Made by a program: the position numbers and the translations under genes. A stretch of DNA of 64,000 nucleotides from Planctomycetota bacterium (GTDB lineage: Bacteria > Planctomycetota > UBA1135 > JACQFD01). The notes under the pieces are model-generated. The model worked only from the letters and a program-made list of their open reading frames with translations, was not told where the DNA came from and searched no databases. Every line of letters starts with the position of its first letter. Position 1 is the stretch's first letter. Positions 53,082 through 63,823 of this stretch are shown here, one piece after another. The DNA lies in NCBI GenBank assembly GCA_016200225.1, contig JACQFD010000005.1:1-64000 (forward strand), given 5' to 3'.

Positions 53082-54011
53082 TCATTTGTTCGGGAGAATT
53101 GTAATGCTGAGTCCCTTGGACGAACTCAGGCCTTGCGGAAGTGAATTACAGTTGGGCCAGTACCAGATCGACTGCGCAAAATAAGTCTGTCCGATGATGG
53201 ACGGATTATTAGGAATCTCCGCCTGAGCCTGCGCATCGCCGGATTCGTCGCTGTAGAAATCGATCGCGGAGATGAAAACCGATTGAAACAGATCCACATG
53301 GAGCAGGAATCCTAAGAAAAACGGATCGCTGCCGGCGACGTCCGCGGCGTCGCCGACAATACCGAGTCCAAGCGACGACGGCGGCGTGTTCGTGCCGGTT
53401 ATAATAAATGACCGCGTCCCGACTTTCGGCAGGTTGCCCGCGCCGATTCCCTCGACGCCCGTGCAGCCGGGTGTGCCGATGCCGTAGGTCGACAGCGCGG
53501 CGGTGTATAACAATCCGCCGGACAGTGTGTCGGAGCCGAGACTCGTTGTTACTGTAACATCGAGGTAACCGGGCGCGGCCGCCGGCGCCGCGAATTTGGC
53601 GACGGTATCCGAAACGAGCGTCACTCCCGACGCCGGTGTGTTGCCTACATTTACCGCGAGCGAACCGCCGACGCCGTATTTATTAAAATTGAGGCCGGAA
53701 ACTGTTATCGACGCCTCGCCCGTAACCGGCGAAAAGTCGGGCGTTACGCCGAAGACGACGGGTCCGTTCGTCGGCTGCGGATCGACGAGCGGAAGAAAAC
53801 CCAATTCAAAACTAAAATTATTCGAATTGATTGCAACACTGCTGCCAATTGAAATATTAGCGAACTGCGCGAACGCGGGCGAACTGTTGCCTCCCGCTTC
53901 GCATACGAGTTCGAATGCGTCCAATTGATAGTTCGCGCTTTGCGCAGCCTGCGGGAAGGCAGGCTGCGCGAGCAGGGTCAACAACAGAAGCGAAGTTGTA
54001 ATTTGTAACAT
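53082..54011 (-). CDS. Secreted IPT/TIG protein with YGxGTPGC signature (copy 1)
   Basis: Protein of 309 residues with a signal peptide (LLLLTLLAQPAFPQ). The N-terminal quarter contains ANYQLDAFELVCEAGG, then a TIG/IPT Ig-like domain (VVFGVTPDFSPVTGEASI to the end of the beta sandwich near 165), then a C-terminal domain introduced by YGIGTPGCTG (about 176-185). This signature recurs in planctomycete exported proteins. The start codon overlaps the stop of the fibre-like gene (TAATG), so the pair is translationally coupled. The paralogue at 62894 has the same domain order and the same coupling. The role is unknown; surface structure or attachment is likely. Confidence 0.75.
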   Translation of the reverse strand: MLQITTSLLLLTLLAQPAFPQAAQSANYQLDAFELVCEAGGNSSPAFAQFANISIGSSVAINSNNFSFELGFLPLVDPQPTNGPVVFGVTPDFSPVTGEASITVSGLNFNKYGVGGSLAVNVGNTPASGVTLVSDTVAKFAAPAAAPGYLDVTVTTSLGSDTLSGGLLYTAALSTYGIGTPGCTGVEGIGAGNLPKVGTRSFIITGTNTPPSSLGLGIVGDAADVAGSDPFFLGFLLHVDLFQSVFISAIDFYSDESGDAQAQAEIPNNPSIIGQTYFAQSIWYWPNCNSLPQGLSSSKGLSITILPNK

Positions 54012-57000
54012 TATCGTCCTCCGCGAGTGGGCGTTGCGGGAGTCGAAGCCTTCGGTCGCGCTTCGACGACTGGCGAACCGGGAACGCGTTCCGTCTTGAG
54101 ATCGCGCAGACGCCAGCCAAGTTTGGCGGCCGTCTGTTCGTTGGGCGTTCCGTCGGGGTTGAGCGTACCGTTCTCGATCAGTAGTTTACGAATGTCTTCC
54201 GGATACTGCGTCCCGAAGGCCACGCCGCGCGCCTTGGGCACATAGTGTACGTTCTCTTCAATGGCCTTGTGATCCGAGTACCCGCGGCGCACGCCATTTA
54301 CGAAGTAGTCAAAGTCAACATCGTTCTTGGAGCGGATAATGATCTTGTCGAGACTCTTGGAGTCAACCCAGAGTGTCGTTGGTGCTCCAACGGGAACGGC
54401 CATGACCGTGAGTCCCTTGGCTTCGGAGACCATCCTGAAGTCTTCGGGTACTACAATTTCGGCAACGCCATTCTTTGTGCGCGACGATCCGCGGAAGTAT
54501 GTACCCGACTCGTTGCCTTCGAGACATACATAGCGGATCTCCTTCGACGGGTCCACTGGATGTGGTTGGACGAAGGATTTCGTGCCGGTGACTTCGAGTT
54601 TGCCAAAGAACCGCCCGGCGGCATAACCGGCACCGGATCCAGCCGACTCGCCGATGACTCCGGCACCGATGCCCAACGCCGCAGTGCCACCGTTGTAGCC
54701 GAAGATTCCCGCCGAAAAAGGATCTGTTCCATCGGTCCAGATGTCGCCTTCGACACCCTCTTCGAAATCGGTTCCATTGTTAGTAACCGTGTTGTAGCCC
54801 AAGAGAGCGGCGCCTCCCGTCCAGTCAGCTTCGCCTTTAATCGCGGTCTGGCCCCTGGCAAACAGTCCTGTGGAGTTGGGCGACGCATTGTCGGCATAGA
54901 TACCGGTCGTGAAACCGCTCGTCGCGGAGTTGTACGTCCACAGTGCAAACGAATCAGGCGACTCTGTCCGGAAGAACCCGGCCGGACTCGTGCCTGTGGT
55001 GAGAAAGTGTTCACCGAACAACGCGATACTACCGATACCGTCGGATTCCGCGTAGATGGCGTTTCCACTCCCCGTCGATCCTGTGTTGTACGCCGCGATT
55101 GTGTTCGCACCGCCGTTGGACACTTCGGCGAAGACAGCCCATGCGTCGAGTGCCGAGTTGAATACATGGAGCGCCGCGCTCCCGCTGGTACTCGCGACGA
55201 TCTGGGCCGAGTCGCCCGGGCCAGAGGTGAGCTCGGTTCGAAATGCACAGTCCGAAGGGTTCACGCTAGTGCCTGTAACACGCACTACACCTGTCGAACT
55301 ACCGGCACCCGTCAGCGGATTGGCAAGATCCACGGCGCCAATGCTGTGGTCGATGACCTCTGAAGTACCCACCGAGTTGGCTCCCGGAGTGCCGCCTCCC
55401 GCAGGTGTCGTCCAAGTTACGCTGCCGCCGTTGAATGTGGGAACCTGGCCGTTCGACGCGCCCGATGAATTTAATTTATCGAGCGTGACCGAATTCGTTT
55501 GAATCTTACCGTTGTCCACGGAACCCGTTCCGAGCATTCCGTTCGTGATGACACCATTGGGTATTGTTAGGACACCAAAAGGAACGGTACTGTTCGGCAG
55601 AAGGCCGCCGAGGGAATTGTAGAATTCCGGGCTCAGATCGAATGAATTGATCGATCCATCCTGAACCTTGCTCGAATCGATGGAGTTCGGGGCGATCATG
55701 GTGCCCAAGACGACGCCAGGCGGAACGATGAGCTTGCTCCAGTCGATCGTACTATTCGGAAGCAGACCCGGCAAATTTAAGAAAAACTGCGGACTGCAAT
55801 CGTTCGTTCCGATCGTTCCGTCTTGAATCCTGCCGGTATCGATAGCGTTCGGCGCGATCATGGGACCCAGAATGCTCGCCGGCGGAACTGTTAATTTACT
55901 CCAATCGATGGATCCGTCGGGCAGGAACGTCGGAAAGTTAATGAAGAATTGCGGACTGCAGTCGTTCGTTTCGATCGTTCCATTCTTAATATTATTCGTG
56001 CCGACCGAATCCGGCGCGAGTTTGGTATCGTCGATCGTCTGCGGCATGATGAAACCGCCGGGAAGCTTGTTGGGATCGAGATAGTCGAGAACGGACTTGA
56101 CGCCCGCCGAGAGTTTGGGTTTGTCAATACTGCCGTCCTCGACTTTGTCGCCATTCAAAGAATTGGGTATAATAAATCCTCCGGGAAGCGATCCATTCTT
56201 TAGATAGTCGAAGTAAACTTTAACAATCGAAGATAGTTGTGGCATATCGATCGCGCCGCCTTGAACTTTGTCTCCGGTGATTGTGTTGGGTTGAAAAACC
56301 GTGCCAGGTGTCGTGCCGGGAAGCAACCAAATCCCTTGAAGGAACGGCGGCTGATTCGGCGGAGTCTGTTCCGCGATTCCAGGAAGAAATCCGGGGACGG
56401 CGCTCTGCGGCGGAAGTGTAAAATTAAATATGAATTGTCCCGGCACGAATGGCGCCGCGTCCTGAGCTTTGTTGCCAAATAAATTGTCTATGAAATCATC
56501 CGTGACTTTATCATGGGTAATGACGCCTTCCATAATATTATCATCGTCGATGGACTGCGGCGCAAGCTGGAGTGGTCCAATTGAGTTCGGGGCGATCTTG
56601 CCGGAAGTGACGGCGCCGGCCTGAATCGCCGCCTCGTCCACCGCCCCAATGCCGATTTTATTCGTAGTCACCGCGCCATCCGCGAGATCTGTTTCATTGA
56701 CCGCGCCGGGTTCGATCTTGTTTCTCGTTACGGCGCCGTCTGCTAACTTTCCGGACGTCACCGCGCCGTCCGACAGTTTCCCAGTTGTAATAGCGCCATC
56801 GGCGATGTCGGTCTCGTTGACCGCTCCGGCGGCGATCTTGTTGCGTGTCACGGAGTAGTCGGCGATCTTTACTGTATTTACAGATCCGTCCGCGAGCTTC
56901 GGCGTCGTCACGGCGCCATCCGCAATATCGGTTTCATTGACGGCGCCGGGCGCCAGTTTGTTGCGCGTCACGGATCCGTCGGCGATCTTATTTGTTGTAA

Positions 57001-57814
57001 CCGCGCTGTCCGCGACGGCATCGTTCGTCACCGCGCCGTTGGAAATACTATCCTGCTGCACGGAGCCGGACAGGATTTTGTCATGGTTCACCGACCCGCG
57101 TCCGAGTTTCGTTAGTGAAACCGCGCCGTCGATAATATTCGTACTTGTAACCGAATCGTTGGCGAGTTTCGGATTTGTTATAGATCCGTCCGCAAGCTTC
57201 GCCGATGTAACAGATCCGTCCGCGAGCGCCCCGCCGCCGACGGCGCCGCTGGCGAGCTTGTCCGACGTCACCGACTGCGCGGCAAGTTTACTGTTCGTGA
57301 CGGCGCCCGATCCCAATTTGGCGGCGCTGACGGCCGCGTCTTTAATGTGAGTACTGTCGATGGTATTCGGCGCGATTGTGGTCGTCGAGTCGATCGAGTC
57401 TACTTTTCCGGCGCGCTGCGCGAATGGAACGGACGCGACCTGGCGTCGGGGCGTCATTTCCTGATCGTCATTGACTTTGAACGCGAGATAGCGCGGGCCG
57501 CTGTCGAATAAATTGTTAGGAACCGGACTTGTCGATCCTAGAAGTAAATTAACCACTCCGTTGATTGCCGTCACTGTCTGCGTTTCTGTATAGAGCGCCG
57601 TACCGCCCGTCTGCGCGTCGTAGACGGTCACTTGCAGCGTGATGGAGCCCACGACCGGCGATCCGCCTGCGTTCGAGAGTTTTCCCTGCAGATGAATCAA
57701 TTGTGGAACCGACTGCGCAACCGCCTGCGTCGGGGTACTCAAGGTCCAGATTCCAACAGTTGCAAGACTTAAGAAACGAAGTTGCGACGCGAGTGGTCGA
57801 GGGAAAATGCGCAT
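54011..57814 (-). CDS. Fibre-like secreted protein with decapeptide repeats
   Basis: Protein of 1267 residues with a signal peptide (FLSLATVGIWTLSTPTQAVAQ). An N-terminal beta domain (about 35-135, with YDAQTGGTALYTETQT) precedes 30 consecutive decapeptides (residues 141-440), then about four longer repeats of 45 residues around LPNSTIDWSKLIVPPG and VQDGSIN, then a C-terminal beta-rich region resembling phage-tail-fibre/trimeric adhesin folds and ending in a compact domain (YVCLEGNESGTYFRGSS, GLTVMAVPVG, DYFVNGVRRGY). The ATG at 57814 is preferred; upstream ATGs at 58093 and 58006 would overlap the divergent MazG gene. Codon choice changes near 55440: repeat part AT-codon-rich, C-terminal part not. 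It is likely a trimeric surface fibre. Confidence 0.78.
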   Translation of the reverse strand: MRIFPRPLASQLRFLSLATVGIWTLSTPTQAVAQSVPQLIHLQGKLSNAGGSPVVGSITLQVTVYDAQTGGTALYTETQTVTAINGVVNLLLGSTSPVPNNLFDSGPRYLAFKVNDDQEMTPRRQVASVPFAQRAGKVDSIDSTTTIAPNTIDSTHIKDAAVSAAKLGSGAVTNSKLAAQSVTSDKLASGAVGGGALADGSVTSAKLADGSITNPKLANDSVTSTNIIDGAVSLTKLGRGSVNHDKILSGSVQQDSISNGAVTNDAVADSAVTTNKIADGSVTRNKLAPGAVNETDIADGAVTTPKLADGSVNTVKIADYSVTRNKIAAGAVNETDIADGAITTGKLSDGAVTSGKLADGAVTRNKIEPGAVNETDLADGAVTTNKIGIGAVDEAAIQAGAVTSGKIAPNSIGPLQLAPQSIDDDNIMEGVITHDKVTDDFIDNLFGNKAQDAAPFVPGQFIFNFTLPPQSAVPGFLPGIAEQTPPNQPPFLQGIWLLPGTTPGTVFQPNTITGDKVQGGAIDMPQLSSIVKVYFDYLKNGSLPGGFIIPNSLNGDKVEDGSIDKPKLSAGVKSVLDYLDPNKLPGGFIMPQTIDDTKLAPDSVGTNNIKNGTIETNDCSPQFFINFPTFLPDGSIDWSKLTVPPASILGPMIAPNAIDTGRIQDGTIGTNDCSPQFFLNLPGLLPNSTIDWSKLIVPPGVVLGTMIAPNSIDSSKVQDGSINSFDLSPEFYNSLGGLLPNSTVPFGVLTIPNGVITNGMLGTGSVDNGKIQTNSVTLDKLNSSGASNGQVPTFNGGSVTWTTPAGGGTPGANSVGTSEVIDHSIGAVDLANPLTGAGSSTGVVRVTGTSVNPSDCAFRTELTSGPGDSAQIVASTSGSAALHVFNSALDAWAVFAEVSNGGANTIAAYNTGSTGSGNAIYAESDGIGSIALFGEHFLTTGTSPAGFFRTESPDSFALWTYNSATSGFTTGIYADNASPNSTGLFARGQTAIKGEADWTGGAALLGYNTVTNNGTDFEEGVEGDIWTDGTDPFSAGIFGYNGGTAALGIGAGVIGESAGSGAGYAAGRFFGKLEVTGTKSFVQPHPVDPSKEIRYVCLEGNESGTYFRGSSRTKNGVAEIVVPEDFRMVSEAKGLTVMAVPVGAPTTLWVDSKSLDKIIIRSKNDVDFDYFVNGVRRGYSDHKAIEENVHYVPKARGVAFGTQYPEDIRKLLIENGTLNPDGTPNEQTAAKLGWRLRDLKTERVPGSPVVEARPKASTPATPTRGGR
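56495..57394 (-). repeat. Thirty in-register decapeptide repeats inside the fibre-like gene
   Basis: Residues 141-440 form 30 blocks of exactly 10 residues with consensus (A/S)VTxxKLADG, for example SVTSAKLADG, AVNETDIADG and AVTRNKIEPG. The DNA period is 30 bp but synonymous sites differ, so selection is on the protein. Such repeats suggest a regular beta-solenoid or triple-beta-helix shaft. Confidence 0.9.
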
Positions 57815-58034
57815 GGGGTTTGTGCTCCGATGAAGTCGCGCGGGACAACCTGCCCTCGCGCATCTCTTCCAGAACGATGCCCATGGAATCCGGGGACGCG
57901 GAAAACGAACGACCTTGTTAAGATCCCGCGAACCCGGCACTTGTTTACAAGCTTTCGCGGGTCGTGCAATTGAACCGGAAGCGCAACGAACCTTGGACTC
58001 ATTCATAATCAACCCGGATCGAATTTTATTATAA

Positions 58035-58403
58035 ATGGAACCGACATCGAACAACTCCAGCGCGTTCACGCATCTCCGCGACTCGTTGCGCAAATTTGCC
58101 GCCGAACGCGAATGGGATCAGTTTCATTCGCCCAAGAATCTCGCATCGGCGCTGGCCGTCGAGTCCGGAGAGTTGTTGGAACACTTTCAGTGGCTGACCG
58201 AAGAAGAGTCGAGAAGACTGTCAATAGAAAAGCGAGAAAAAGTACGCGAGGAAATGGCCGATGTTTTGTTATACCTTGTCCGACTCGCGGACAAGCTCGA
58301 CGCGGATCTCATCGAAGATGCCACGCGAAAAATCGAATCAAATGCCCGGAAATATCCGATCGAAAAAGCGCGGGGAACCCATCGAAAGTACACGGAGTTA
58401 TAA
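58035..58403 (+). CDS. MazG-type nucleotide pyrophosphohydrolase
   Basis: Protein of 122 residues of the all-alpha NTP pyrophosphohydrolase superfamily, close to dCTPase/RS21-C6-like MazG. The metal-binding helices are visible in AVESGELLEHFQWL (ExxE) and REEMADVLLYLVRLAD (ExxD). WDQFHSPKNLA is the helix that opens the family. It likely hydrolyses a deoxynucleoside or modified NTP. The ATG at 58035 is 221 bp from the divergent fibre-like gene. The DUF2075 gene follows after 6 bp, so the two form an operon. The same pair is known in many genomes, but I cannot confirm that here. Confidence 0.88.
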   Translation: MEPTSNNSSAFTHLRDSLRKFAAEREWDQFHSPKNLASALAVESGELLEHFQWLTEEESRRLSIEKREKVREEMADVLLYLVRLADKLDADLIEDATRKIESNARKYPIEKARGTHRKYTEL

Positions 58404-58409
58404 ATAACA

Positions 58410-60374
58410 ATGAGACTCTACTCGGGCATGTCGCAGGATTTCATTCGCGAAACAACACGGAACCAAATCGCAGAGCAGCTTCGAACGGCATTCTTCGATT
58501 ATTATAGATATCAACCGGCTCCAAGCGAAGTTCATTCCTGGCGCAACTCCCTGCGCGCGATGAAAGATGTGATGCAAGAATCCGCGTTGCTGGACCACGG
58601 CGTCTTTCTGGAATATCAACTTCCACTCAACTCGAGGCGCATCGATTGCATGCTTTGCGGACACGACGCCGCGGATGCGGAACAGGCCGTCATTGTGGAA
58701 TTGAAGCAATGGGACAAATGTGAAGCATCGGACGCCGATAAATTAGTTAGCAGTTGGGTGGGCGGCGGCCGGCGGGAATTATTACATCCATCGGTGCAAG
58801 TGGGACAGTACCGCCAGTATCTCGCGGACACACACTCCGCATTCAACGAGGGACAACCGCCCGTCGGCCTCTCCGCCTGCGCGTATCTTCACAATTATTT
58901 CCCGGTTGAGGAAGATCCGATACTCGCGCCGAAGTTTAATGATGTCATCCGCGAGAACCCGCTTTTCGATGCAAATAGTCCGGTGGCGCTCGGATCGTTT
59001 CTCCAACCCCGACTGGAGGCCGCGGGAGGCAAATCCGTATTGCAACGAATCGACGAGGGCCGATTCCGGCAGAGTCGAAAACTCATGGATCATGTCGCAA
59101 ATGCTATCAAATCCCATTCGCCGTGGATTTTGCTCGACGAACAATTGGTTGTTTATGAAAGTATTCGCGCCGCCGCGAAACTAAATTTATCCGGAAGTCG
59201 CAAGAGAGTAGTCATTGTTCGCGGAGGTCCTGGAACCGGGAAATCCGTCCTTGCCATAAACCTCATGGCGGACCTTCTCCGGGCGGGAAAAAATGCTCAG
59301 TATGCGACCGGTTCAAAAGCATTTACAGAAACGCTCTGGAGCATCATGGGTTCGCGGTCGAGAGCGAATTTTAAGTATTTTAATAGTTATGGACAGGCAG
59401 AACCCGGAGAAATTGATGTATTAATTTGCGACGAGTCCCACAGAATCCGAAAAACGAGCAATAACCGATTTACGCGAAAAGAATTTAGATCGGAGCAACC
59501 TCAAATTCGCGAGATATTGGACGCGGCGAAAGTATCAGTGTTCTTCATCGATGATCGCCAGTGTGTGCGTCCGGACGAGACGGGCTCCAGTGCATACATC
59601 CGCGAGCATGCCGAATCCGCGGGCGCCGAGACATCGGAGTATGAACTCGAAGCGCAATTTCGATGTTCAGGTTCCGACGGATTTGTTAATTGGATCGACA
59701 ACACACTCGGAATCCGGCGCACCGCCAATGTGATTTGGGATGGAGTCGATGGTTTCGATTTTCAAATTGTTGTTTCGCCGGGTGCACTCGATTCTGCGAT
59801 TCGCAAACGCGCCGCGAATGGCGAGACGGCACGTCTGGCCGCGGGATTTTGCTGGCCATGGTCGGATCCAAAATCGGATGGAACACTTGAATCAGATGTA
59901 GTCATTGGAAGTTTCGTTCGCCCGTGGAATGCCAAGTCCGGAAAATTTAAATTGGCTCCAAACATACCGAAAGAGTCGTTGTGGGCGACAGTTCCCTCGG
60001 GAATTGAACAAATAGGATGCGTATACACAATTCAGGGCTTCGAACTCGATTATGTCGGCATCATCTGGGGCCCCGATCTTAAGTATGATTTCGACAGTCA
60101 ATCATGGATCGGAGACAAGACGAAATCCGCGGACAGCTCCGTCAAGCGTTCGAAAGATCGATTCGTCGATTATGTAAAAAATACTTATCGCGTCCTGCTC
60201 TCGCGCGGCATGAAGGGCTGCTATGTCCATTTCCTCGACAAGGACACCGAACGATTTGTTAGAAGCCGAATGGAATCGAGACCAACGTCAGGTCAAAAAT
60301 CGCCGCTCGATTCGTATCCCGTGCCCGATGCGGTTATTGACAAAGTGGCGGAGAAGCCGCGAGAGAGGGATTAA
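58410..60374 (+). CDS. PD-(D/E)xK nuclease fused to DUF2075/Schlafen-group-3-like ATPase
   Basis: Protein of 654 residues. The N-terminal part has a nuclease-like pattern: Asp79 in RRIDCML and Glu97-Leu-Lys99 in VIVELKQWD, matching D...ExK of PD-(D/E)xK enzymes. From about residue 255 it is a DUF2075 helicase-like ATPase: Walker A GGPGTGKS (272-279), Walker B DVLICDE (336-342), motif III-like FFIDDRQCVRPDE (about 378-390), an arginine-rich QFRCSGSD, and near the end YTIQGFELDYVGIIWG and YRVLLSRGMKG. A MazG partner upstream and a tRNA fragment downstream suggest an anti-phage role (inference). Base composition is less GC-skewed than in neighbouring genes. Confidence 0.85.
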   Translation: MRLYSGMSQDFIRETTRNQIAEQLRTAFFDYYRYQPAPSEVHSWRNSLRAMKDVMQESALLDHGVFLEYQLPLNSRRIDCMLCGHDAADAEQAVIVELKQWDKCEASDADKLVSSWVGGGRRELLHPSVQVGQYRQYLADTHSAFNEGQPPVGLSACAYLHNYFPVEEDPILAPKFNDVIRENPLFDANSPVALGSFLQPRLEAAGGKSVLQRIDEGRFRQSRKLMDHVANAIKSHSPWILLDEQLVVYESIRAAAKLNLSGSRKRVVIVRGGPGTGKSVLAINLMADLLRAGKNAQYATGSKAFTETLWSIMGSRSRANFKYFNSYGQAEPGEIDVLICDESHRIRKTSNNRFTRKEFRSEQPQIREILDAAKVSVFFIDDRQCVRPDETGSSAYIREHAESAGAETSEYELEAQFRCSGSDGFVNWIDNTLGIRRTANVIWDGVDGFDFQIVVSPGALDSAIRKRAANGETARLAAGFCWPWSDPKSDGTLESDVVIGSFVRPWNAKSGKFKLAPNIPKESLWATVPSGIEQIGCVYTIQGFELDYVGIIWGPDLKYDFDSQSWIGDKTKSADSSVKRSKDRFVDYVKNTYRVLLSRGMKGCYVHFLDKDTERFVRSRMESRPTSGQKSPLDSYPVPDAVIDKVAEKPRERD

Positions 60375-60404
60375 TATCGCAAAATATATATTATCATCTG
60401 GCAT

Positions 60405-60426
60405 GCGGCTTTTTTTGTAAAGCCGC
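60405..60426. terminator. Stem-loop downstream of the DUF2075 gene
   Basis: GCGGCTTT (60405-60412) and AAAGCCGC (60419-60426) form a perfect 8-bp stem with loop TTTTGT. It begins 31 bp after the stop at 60374. The T run is inside the loop rather than after the stem, so it is not a textbook intrinsic terminator. Confidence 0.45.
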
Positions 60427-60582
60427 GGATCCTTCAACCCATCGAAACGACGCACACGACGACAACGAAATCATTCAGTTTCTGTTGAATCGAATCCGGG
60501 CAATCAGCCAACGTCTGAATTACTCCTGAAATCTCCTTGTTACATTCCTGTTTAATCTTTAATTCTGAGAGTCGCGGCGCTC

Positions 60583-60632
60583 GGTGGCGTGGGAAGGACT
60601 CGAACCTGTGACCGCCGGGTCACGGTCCAGTC
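60583..60632 (-). pseudogene. tRNA 3'-half-like fragment
   Basis: Read on the minus strand it contains GGTTCGAGTCC, the T-loop consensus, followed by TTCCCACGCCACC as a possible acceptor end. Upstream is a possible anticodon arm (GACCG ... CGGTC). No matching 5' half with GGCGTGGG is found in the 100 nt beyond, and two T-stem pairs are broken. It therefore looks like a remnant, for example an attachment-site duplication of a tRNA 3' end, rather than a working gene. The anticodon cannot be assigned. Confidence 0.4.
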
Positions 60633-62752: not shown

Positions 62753-62990
62753 TAAATTGGAAAAACTCGGCGAGCGCATAAGATGGTCGGCGACATATTT
62801 CCTTCCGCCAGTCGGAGTTTTTGTTGGCTTGAAATATTTCGCGGACGTTTCGGAAGTCGGCGCGCGCGATGGTAGTGGCTTGGGGCGGGAAAATCAGGGT
62901 GTGATCGTGATCGACAGTCCGCGTGAAGAACTTAAATTATATTGGGTGTTCATTACACAAGCCGATTCGACCCAGAGAACCTGTGCATAG
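62688..62990 (+). CDS. Possible small membrane protein overlapping the previous gene
   Basis: Possible product of 100 residues starting at an ATG inside the 62420 gene (+1 frame, 65-bp overlap). The N-terminal half looks like a real protein: DELDPEARRKAIDKLEKLGE is a charged helix, followed by one transmembrane-like segment WSATYFLPPVGVFVGLKYF. From about residue 65 the frame runs antisense to the end of the IPT/TIG gene at 62894, where it has no coding character, so the true C-terminus is in doubt. A frameshift in a C5 run at about 62705 could join it to the 62420 protein. Confidence 0.35.
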   Translation: MTWKEPPGRDELDPEARRKAIDKLEKLGERIRWSATYFLPPVGVFVGLKYFADVSEVGARDGSGLGRENQGVIVIDSPREELKLYWVFITQADSTQRTCA

Positions 62991-63823
62991 TACACATGAC
63001 CGATCAGTGAATTATCATTTGGAATCGCGACCGTCGCATAGCCGGTGGCGGTGGCATCGCTGACGATGTCAAAACTAATGATTTCCGTTGCGGCAAACAG
63101 GTTTAAATGTAACAGAACTCCAAGTCCAAATGGATCCGATCCGGGCACGTCCGCCGCATTCGCCACGAGACAAACTCCCAAAGAACTCAGCGGCGCGCTC
63201 GTGCATGTAATGGTAAATTGTGCATTACCAATATTCGGACACGACGTGGCATTTACAGTTTCGGGACCCGCGCAGCCGGGTGTGCCCGTGCCATAGGCGG
63301 AAAGATCGCCGCTGAACGTGTAGGCGCCGGCCGCGATATCCGAGCCAAAATTGCTGGCAACTTGAACATTCACAATGCCGCTCGGGCCCGCGGGTGACAC
63401 GCAGTTGAGCAGCGTGTCGGAGGATACAGATACGCCCGTGGCGAAATTTGATCCAAACTTAACATTCACCGATGGGCCGGCGCCGAATTTATTAAAATTA
63501 AGTCCGGTAATGGTGACGGGCGCTCCGCCCGAAGCGGGTCCGCAGCCCGGTGCAACGCCGAAGATTACAGGCGCATTGGTAGGTTCGGGATCGCAGGCTT
63601 CAAGGAATCCAAGCGCTAGATGAAAGTTGGTTGTATAGATTTCCGCGCCGGAGAATGGCTGGGCCGAGAGAAACGATGAATAATTTAACGAACATTCGCC
63701 GCCGCCGCCGCCTGCCATGCAGTCATCCAGCAATTGATAATTTGGGCTCGACGCCAGCTGCGCCGCGGCCACGGCCGGCAGCAGGCAGACTCCAAGCATC
63801 GAGAATGGAGTTGGAAATCTCAT
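62894..63823 (-). CDS. Secreted IPT/TIG protein with YGxGTPGC signature (copy 2)
   Basis: Protein of 309 residues with a signal peptide (LGVCLLPAVAAA), paralogous to the protein at 53082 in length and order. It has an N-terminal ANYQLLDDC-like segment (Cys-rich CMAGGGGGECSL), a TIG/IPT domain (VIFGVAPGCGPASGGAPVTI) and a C-terminal domain introduced by YGTGTPGCAG (about 177-186). Its ATG overlaps the TGA of the gene entering from the right edge (ATGA), the same coupling as in the first pair. Cys residues are more numerous than in copy 1. Function unknown. Confidence 0.75.
   Translation of the reverse strand: MRFPTPFSMLGVCLLPAVAAAQLASSPNYQLLDDCMAGGGGGECSLNYSSFLSAQPFSGAEIYTTNFHLALGFLEACDPEPTNAPVIFGVAPGCGPASGGAPVTITGLNFNKFGAGPSVNVKFGSNFATGVSVSSDTLLNCVSPAGPSGIVNVQVASNFGSDIAAGAYTFSGDLSAYGTGTPGCAGPETVNATSCPNIGNAQFTITCTSAPLSSLGVCLVANAADVPGSDPFGLGVLLHLNLFAATEIISFDIVSDATATGYATVAIPNDNSLIGHVYYAQVLWVESACVMNTQYNLSSSRGLSITITP

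Follow-up and report, generated by a model that had tools for sequence, protein, structure and literature searches.

A MazG-like gene and a nuclease-helicase gene as a candidate two-gene immune cassette in a Planctomycetota bacterium

We propose that two adjacent genes in the genome of a Planctomycetota bacterium make up a horizontally moving two-gene immune cassette, where the nuclease-helicase senses phage DNA and the MazG-type enzyme depletes dCTP or modified dCTP, a reading to which we give about an even chance of being correct. As predicted from the sequences, the pair probably helps cells to resist viruses. Defence is favoured because the pairing is recurrent, the transfer is patchy and crosses phyla, relatives are carried on plasmids and phages, and defence genes lie beside relatives, as presented below.

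The two genes and their predicted proteins

The window, by which we mean the whole stretch of 64,000 nucleotides that was analysed, comprises bases 1-64000 of a contig of 66501 bases (C19) in a genome of 5.3 Mb and 40 contigs. As described in the initial annotation, the two open reading frames are located at 58035-58403 and 58410-60374, share the + strand and are separated by 6 bp.

The first gene (58035-58403, + strand) encodes a MazG-like NTP pyrophosphohydrolase of 122 aa and of the dCTPP1 type. Its assignment to MazG in the initial annotation is confirmed by two Pfam families, with PF12643 (1.1e-16) scoring 61.3 bits against a cut-off of 27 bits and PF03819 scoring 24.8 bits against 22 bits. 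Among solved structures, its closest relatives are dCTP pyrophosphatase 1 / RS21-C6 (2.8e-23), from which we infer dCTP or modified dCTP as the putative substrate. The ExxE...ExxD catalytic motif is intact (E43, E46, E73 and D76), with the four residues being putative metal ligands. Among 40 linked MazG proteins, F21, R25, W27, H31, K34, E43, E46, E73, D76 and K99 are kept in all 40 and W53 in 37; when aligned to dCTPP1, the conserved positions presumably fall on its catalytic and base-binding pocket. A second MazG-like gene is present in the genome at C8:1059-1391, with 41% identity.

The second gene (58410-60374, + strand) encodes a nuclease-helicase fusion of 654 aa of the SLFN-g3 family, formerly DUF2075 (PF09848, 4.6e-86), for which the structure model m0ab4045d5050 has a mean pLDDT of 88.5. 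Its residues 1-235 (58410-59114, + strand) were modelled separately (me97614219c64, pLDDT 95.0), and the nuclease-like N-terminus of the initial annotation is borne out, with the model showing a PD-(D/E)xK fold. The modelled core has the order alpha-beta-beta-beta-alpha-beta, formed by helix 38-57, strands 64-70, 77-85 and 91-99, helix 127-141 and strand 153-160. Of the 80 related loci, 77 gave full-length rows for the alignment and three with broken or short ORFs were left out. In all 77 aligned relatives D79 in the motif R77-x-D79 (codon at 58644-58646, + strand) and E97 and K99 in E97-L-K99 (58698-58706, + strand) are invariant, so that the nuclease residues pointed out before hold and no loss of D, E or K is seen in close homologues. 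Moreover, beyond these residues a further motif, Q130-x3-Y134 (58797-58811, + strand), has both Q130 and Y134 in 77 of 77 relatives; we take it to resemble that of RecB-type nucleases.

Among the matches listed, the top structural neighbours of the N-terminal domain found by VIA-align are PD-(D/E)xK-type nucleases at modest scores, namely Can2 (8q41, Z 8.9), VC1899 (Z 8.4), Cdn1 (Z 8.4) and Card1 (Z 7.0). Foldseek with this domain alone returned nothing at E≤0.001, and a sequence profile of the domain found no solved relative. Since the structural scores are modest and Foldseek was empty, the PD-(D/E)xK assignment rests on the fold together with the invariant motif. Based on the model, residues 1-235 are a PD-(D/E)xK nuclease domain with predicted metal-dependent activity. 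It is noted that no Pfam match to the N-terminal Schlafen core occurs at E≤1, with the region being modelled as PD-(D/E)xK instead.

Residues 236-624 (59115-60281, + strand) form an SF1 helicase/SLFN-g3 domain according to both Foldseek (DSH9, 3.4e-11; SLFN11, 6.4e-11; RecD2, 7.1e-11) and VIA (UvrD, Z 21.8; SLFN11, Z 20.0; RecD2, Z 18.9). PF09848 is passed with 289.7 bits against a cut-off of 24 bits. Walker A is G272-S279 (GGPGTGKS; 59223-59246, + strand), where G272, P274, G275, G277 and K278 are invariant in the alignment, and Walker B/DExH is D341-E-S-H344 (59430-59441, + strand), where D341, E342 and H344 are invariant. This agrees with the earlier description of a DUF2075/Schlafen-group-3 ATPase with intact Walker motifs. 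The same genome holds a second gene of the SLFN-g3 helicase family at about 106400-108260 of contig C12 (L103:8404-10260); it is split into two ORFs and is probably broken, and no MazG gene beside it is seen in the ORF list.

The locus, its flanks and its mobility

Compared with 126 ORFs of the genome, the nuclease-helicase gene has a GC content of 0.515 and a GC3 of 0.537 versus means of 0.577 and 0.659, with only 2.4% of the ORFs being as low by GC and 0.8% by GC3. The MazG gene is less deviant, with 4% of the ORFs as low by GC and 10% by GC3. Codon usage is only mildly unusual against the same ORFs (6% for the nuclease-helicase gene and 33% for the MazG gene). The differing base composition reported initially therefore stands for GC and GC3, mainly in the second gene, while codon usage deviates only mildly.

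The flanks agree with the earlier description in part. Two IPT/TIG proteins of 309 aa, at 53082-54011 and 62894-63823, are paralogues with 44% identity and flank the region, so the IPT half of the proposed duplicated fibre/IPT pairs is present on both sides; next to the IPT gene on the right, no further fibre gene was found, and the nearest gene there encodes a protein of 406 aa that weakly matches a beta-helix family. On the left, 54011-58012 is taken up by a very long fibre-like gene that is rich in repeats, has no Pfam match and is divergent from the cassette. The tRNA 3'-like fragment placed near 60590 did not hold, with no match by ARAGORN and no match to the Rfam tRNA family up to E=1. 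A second copy of the fragment is absent from the genome when searched with up to 3 mismatches, and no direct repeats of at least 12 bases flank the gene pair. A tRNA-anchored island is thus rejected as unsupported, because the tRNA match, the second genome copy and the flanking repeat are all lacking. A hairpin at 60400-60432 (+ strand) is a possible transcript end, its fold of -15.6 kcal/mol being not significant (z -1.19), and the scan for promoters and terminators gave no signal above shuffles.

The relatives give evidence of mobility. The nearest kin of the large protein are from a Rokubacterium (71% identity) and a Chromatiales bacterium (69%), and since these two belong to two different phyla, the pair moves horizontally. 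Within the phylum of the window, the large protein occurs in 8 of 294 sampled genomes and, besides the window's own copy, is at most 40% identical; it is absent from the 20 genomes of the same order that were listed. Plasmids account for 23 of the records with relatives, and phages for 4. In Microcystis phage Mwe-JY31 the genes for a TPR protein, a Pfam-confirmed MazG and the nuclease-helicase follow one another, and on an IMG/VR contig a divergent MazG-like ORF, judged by eye, lies beside a relative of the large protein. The pair is a horizontally mobile unit common to distant bacteria and archaea.

Recurrence of the pair, partner variants and defence neighbours

A MazG ORF lies at most 200 bp from the helicase gene in 35 of the 80 related loci, which span several bacterial and archaeal phyla. 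In these linked loci the two genes share the strand in 31 of 35, MazG is upstream in 31, the spacing is at most 20 bp in 18, and about half have a spacing of a few bases or a 4 bp overlap. The counts were taken over all ORFs rather than gene calls, because the gene caller hid some MazG genes. From 35 MazG matches in 30 of the relatives' genomes (about 164 Mb, the genomes being not randomly drawn), about 0.02 chance pairs would be expected in 80 loci versus the 35 observed. Moreover, the identities of the two proteins correlate with r=0.60 over 41 gene pairs, and none of 2000 permutations is as high. On the tree (81 rows, 78 labelled) the linked state changes at least 20 times, which implies that the association was gained or lost many times. 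The pairing of MazG with the nuclease-helicase is not a matter of chance. Three Hymenobacteraceae loci have two copies of the helicase gene in tandem, with MazG lying directly before the second. Two loci (L088 and L092) were dropped as paired loci, the MazG genes of those genomes being on other contigs. Within the phylum of the window, MazG of this type is found in 66 of 294 genomes and only the window copy adjoins a helicase gene, so that, of the 8 genes for the large protein in this phylum, one is paired with MazG.

In the other 45 of the 80 loci no MazG lies at 200 bp or less, with several of the contigs ending nearby. This bears on an explanation that we consider rather unlikely, in which immunity is the work of the nuclease-helicase by itself and MazG is a common but optional passenger, or a housecleaning enzyme that shields the host from damaged or toxic nucleotides set free as the nuclease degrades DNA. 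Such a role would agree with these unpaired relatives, with the Actinobacterial relatives of the large protein, which are often solitary or in tandem, and with the PADLOC model PDC-S41, a one-protein candidate. It does not sit well, however, with the fact that about half of the linked loci have closely spaced or overlapping genes, with the co-variation and the repeated re-pairing of the two proteins, or with the replacement of MazG by another nucleotide enzyme in Chloroflexi.

That replacement is seen in two Chloroflexi without MazG (L039 and L044), where the gene that follows and overlaps the helicase gene encodes, in L039, a 5'-deoxynucleotidase (PF06941). In L044:8566-13566, and also in L039, overlapping or abutting genes stand in a row for a PARG-like protein, a protein of no assigned family, the nuclease-helicase, the 5'-deoxynucleotidase (scanned in L039) and a GIY-YIG nuclease. 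These loci, which are two and near-identical, suggest that nucleotide-attacking partners are exchangeable between MazG and 5'-deoxynucleotidase. A TPR protein of 663-691 aa (about 670 aa) occurs in 8 of 96 clustered loci (L008, L020, L021, L022, L047, L048, L095 and L099), in most of them directly upstream of MazG, and is a possible third member of the cassette. Note also that a family of 218-318 aa proteins is found near the helicase gene in L016, L018, L025, L031, L056 and L068, adjacent to it in four, with the L025 member having an HNH_2 match.

For the 39 other ORFs of the window, the best 25 of 35 PADLOC models point to no specific defence neighbour; the matches are dominated by the PD-T4-6, mads and Mokosh models and arise from two proteins, which we take to be kinase-type. 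A local defence island around the window copy is unsupported, since these PADLOC matches are mostly to generic models. With no defence neighbour standing out within the window, the defence reading rests on the relatives.

On a Priestia plasmid the pair sits between ABC-three-component and restriction genes; a MutT gene is also near this pair. The surroundings of other plasmid relatives include restriction genes, BREX brxL about 8 kb away, type I-E CRISPR genes and DruA about 6 kb away. In all, 11 of the 23 plasmid records were inspected, some of which have no clear defence genes and others no annotation. At L006, the nearest kin, the next genes are for a WYL/WCX regulator and a DUF6036/HTH pair, and at L007 no recognised defence family was found in the six neighbours scanned. 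About half of the BrxR-family WYL regulators are reported to co-localise with defence systems (PMC9122601). With PADLOC at E≤1e-15, 37+167 models were matched over 225 neighbour proteins in 19 paired loci versus 30+21 over 236 control proteins in 19 stretches, a trend only, because the counts are of models and one protein may match many. Among the first 25 models of each list, the paired loci gave Dpd, Druantia, Septu, DarG, SoFic, PD-Lambda-1 and type IV restriction, and the control stretches gave matches including HEC-01. Co-occurrence with defence genes is therefore seen as a trend beside relatives, in PADLOC and on plasmids, and not as a specific neighbour in the window itself. In an Acidobacteria relative, a TIR-domain gene (L015:8649-9731) is located upstream of the nuclease-helicase gene.

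The same neighbourhoods weigh against a second explanation, that the pair is a horizontally spreading module for DNA repair or nucleotide-pool maintenance rather than an immune system. The helicase folds of RecD2, UvrD and Dna2-like type, the role in dNTP homeostasis described for human DCTPP1 (PMC7162842) and the MutT gene near the Priestia pair are consistent with it, but the very patchy distribution, the carriage on plasmids and phages and the nearby defence genes are not, and we consider it improbable.

Proposed mechanism and comparison with known systems

In the immune cassette that we propose, the SF1 Schlafen-type helicase domain would engage abnormal DNA of the replicating phage, such as single strands, free ends and forks, and its ATP-driven movement would feed or license the N-terminal PD-(D/E)xK nuclease, leading to a cut. 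MazG, being of the dCTPP1 type, would split dCTP or 5-modified dCTP into dCMP and pyrophosphate, and the loss of dCTP would starve phage synthesis and slow the repair of the cut DNA. The enzyme activities, the substrates, the DNA trigger, the cooperation of the two proteins and the phage target are here what we infer. As a DNA-reading helicase governing a nuclease (Hachiman, Hna and Nhi) and dNTP depletion are both established plans of defence, the simplest reading joins the two.

In a variant that we hold to be quite improbable, MazG would destroy the 5-modified dCTP that some phages make for shielding their DNA, so that new phage DNA made with plain cytosine stays cleavable by the nuclease-helicase. 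If this is true, the cassette would counter the modification of phage DNA, a Schlafen-family motor would cut DNA in bacteria and archaea, and the partners would be exchangeable. It is very unlikely that MazG is instead a regulator, destroying a nucleotide by which the nuclease-helicase is activated or inhibited, for although Clover offers a precedent (PMC12265719) and the operon arrangement agrees with it, the cassette has no nucleotide synthase.

Several known or candidate systems resemble the proposed cassette in part. PDC-S41, where we take the S to mean single, is a one-protein PADLOC model of 657 positions which the window protein matches with 1e-20 in three stretches, with the N-terminal region being the best-matching stretch in some relatives; it differs in that the score is low (71.6 bits, no cut-off being given) and its name includes no MazG partner. 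No paper under that name was found in the open PMC literature. The window protein is like Nhi/AbiO in having nuclease and helicase in one chain, and its helicase region matches with 8.8e-11 and 2.6e-11, but the match is confined to about residues 241-419 and the nuclease part is unmatched. The published account of Nhi, a nuclease-helicase encoded by one gene and linked to the phage SSB, does not mention MazG (PMC12904381). Hna is an anti-phage protein that, as here, has a helicase and a PD-(D/E)xK nuclease on a single chain (PMC13381803); however, its helicase is SF2 and its nuclease C-terminal, whereas the window protein is SF1-like with an N-terminal nuclease, and thus does not have the Hna architecture. 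In Hachiman HamAB a DNA-sensing helicase controls a nuclease (PMC12278908), but there the two are separate chains, and the abstract names no nucleotide enzyme.

SLFN11, a eukaryotic group III Schlafen, belongs to the same helicase family (Z 20.0, profile E 0.0016). Schlafens have an N-terminal RNase core, in the place of which the window protein has the PD-(D/E)xK domain.

On the side of nucleotide depletion, the dCTP deaminase defence attacks the dNTP pool. The pool is likewise attacked by dGTPase and by Clover, but these defences use an HD dNTPase or a deaminase rather than MazG and have no nuclease-helicase. In Clover, nucleotide signals are reported to control the dNTPase in the attack on the pool (PMC12265719). 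DefensePredictor places MazG among unvalidated predicted defence domains (2026; PMC13092281, section 8); the text consulted states no partner of MazG, and DUF2075 and Schlafen are absent from its main text. Nuclease-helicase defences and nucleotide-depleting defences are thus each known, and for their pairing as found here we found no account in the open PMC literature.

Finally, the pair offers a precise test, involving few residues, of the role of MazG enzymes in immunity, which stands as an unvalidated prediction (PMC13092281). If confirmed, this compact mobile pair would combine a nuclease-helicase and nucleotide depletion in one unit, with the helicase belonging to a family common to the human antiviral Schlafens.
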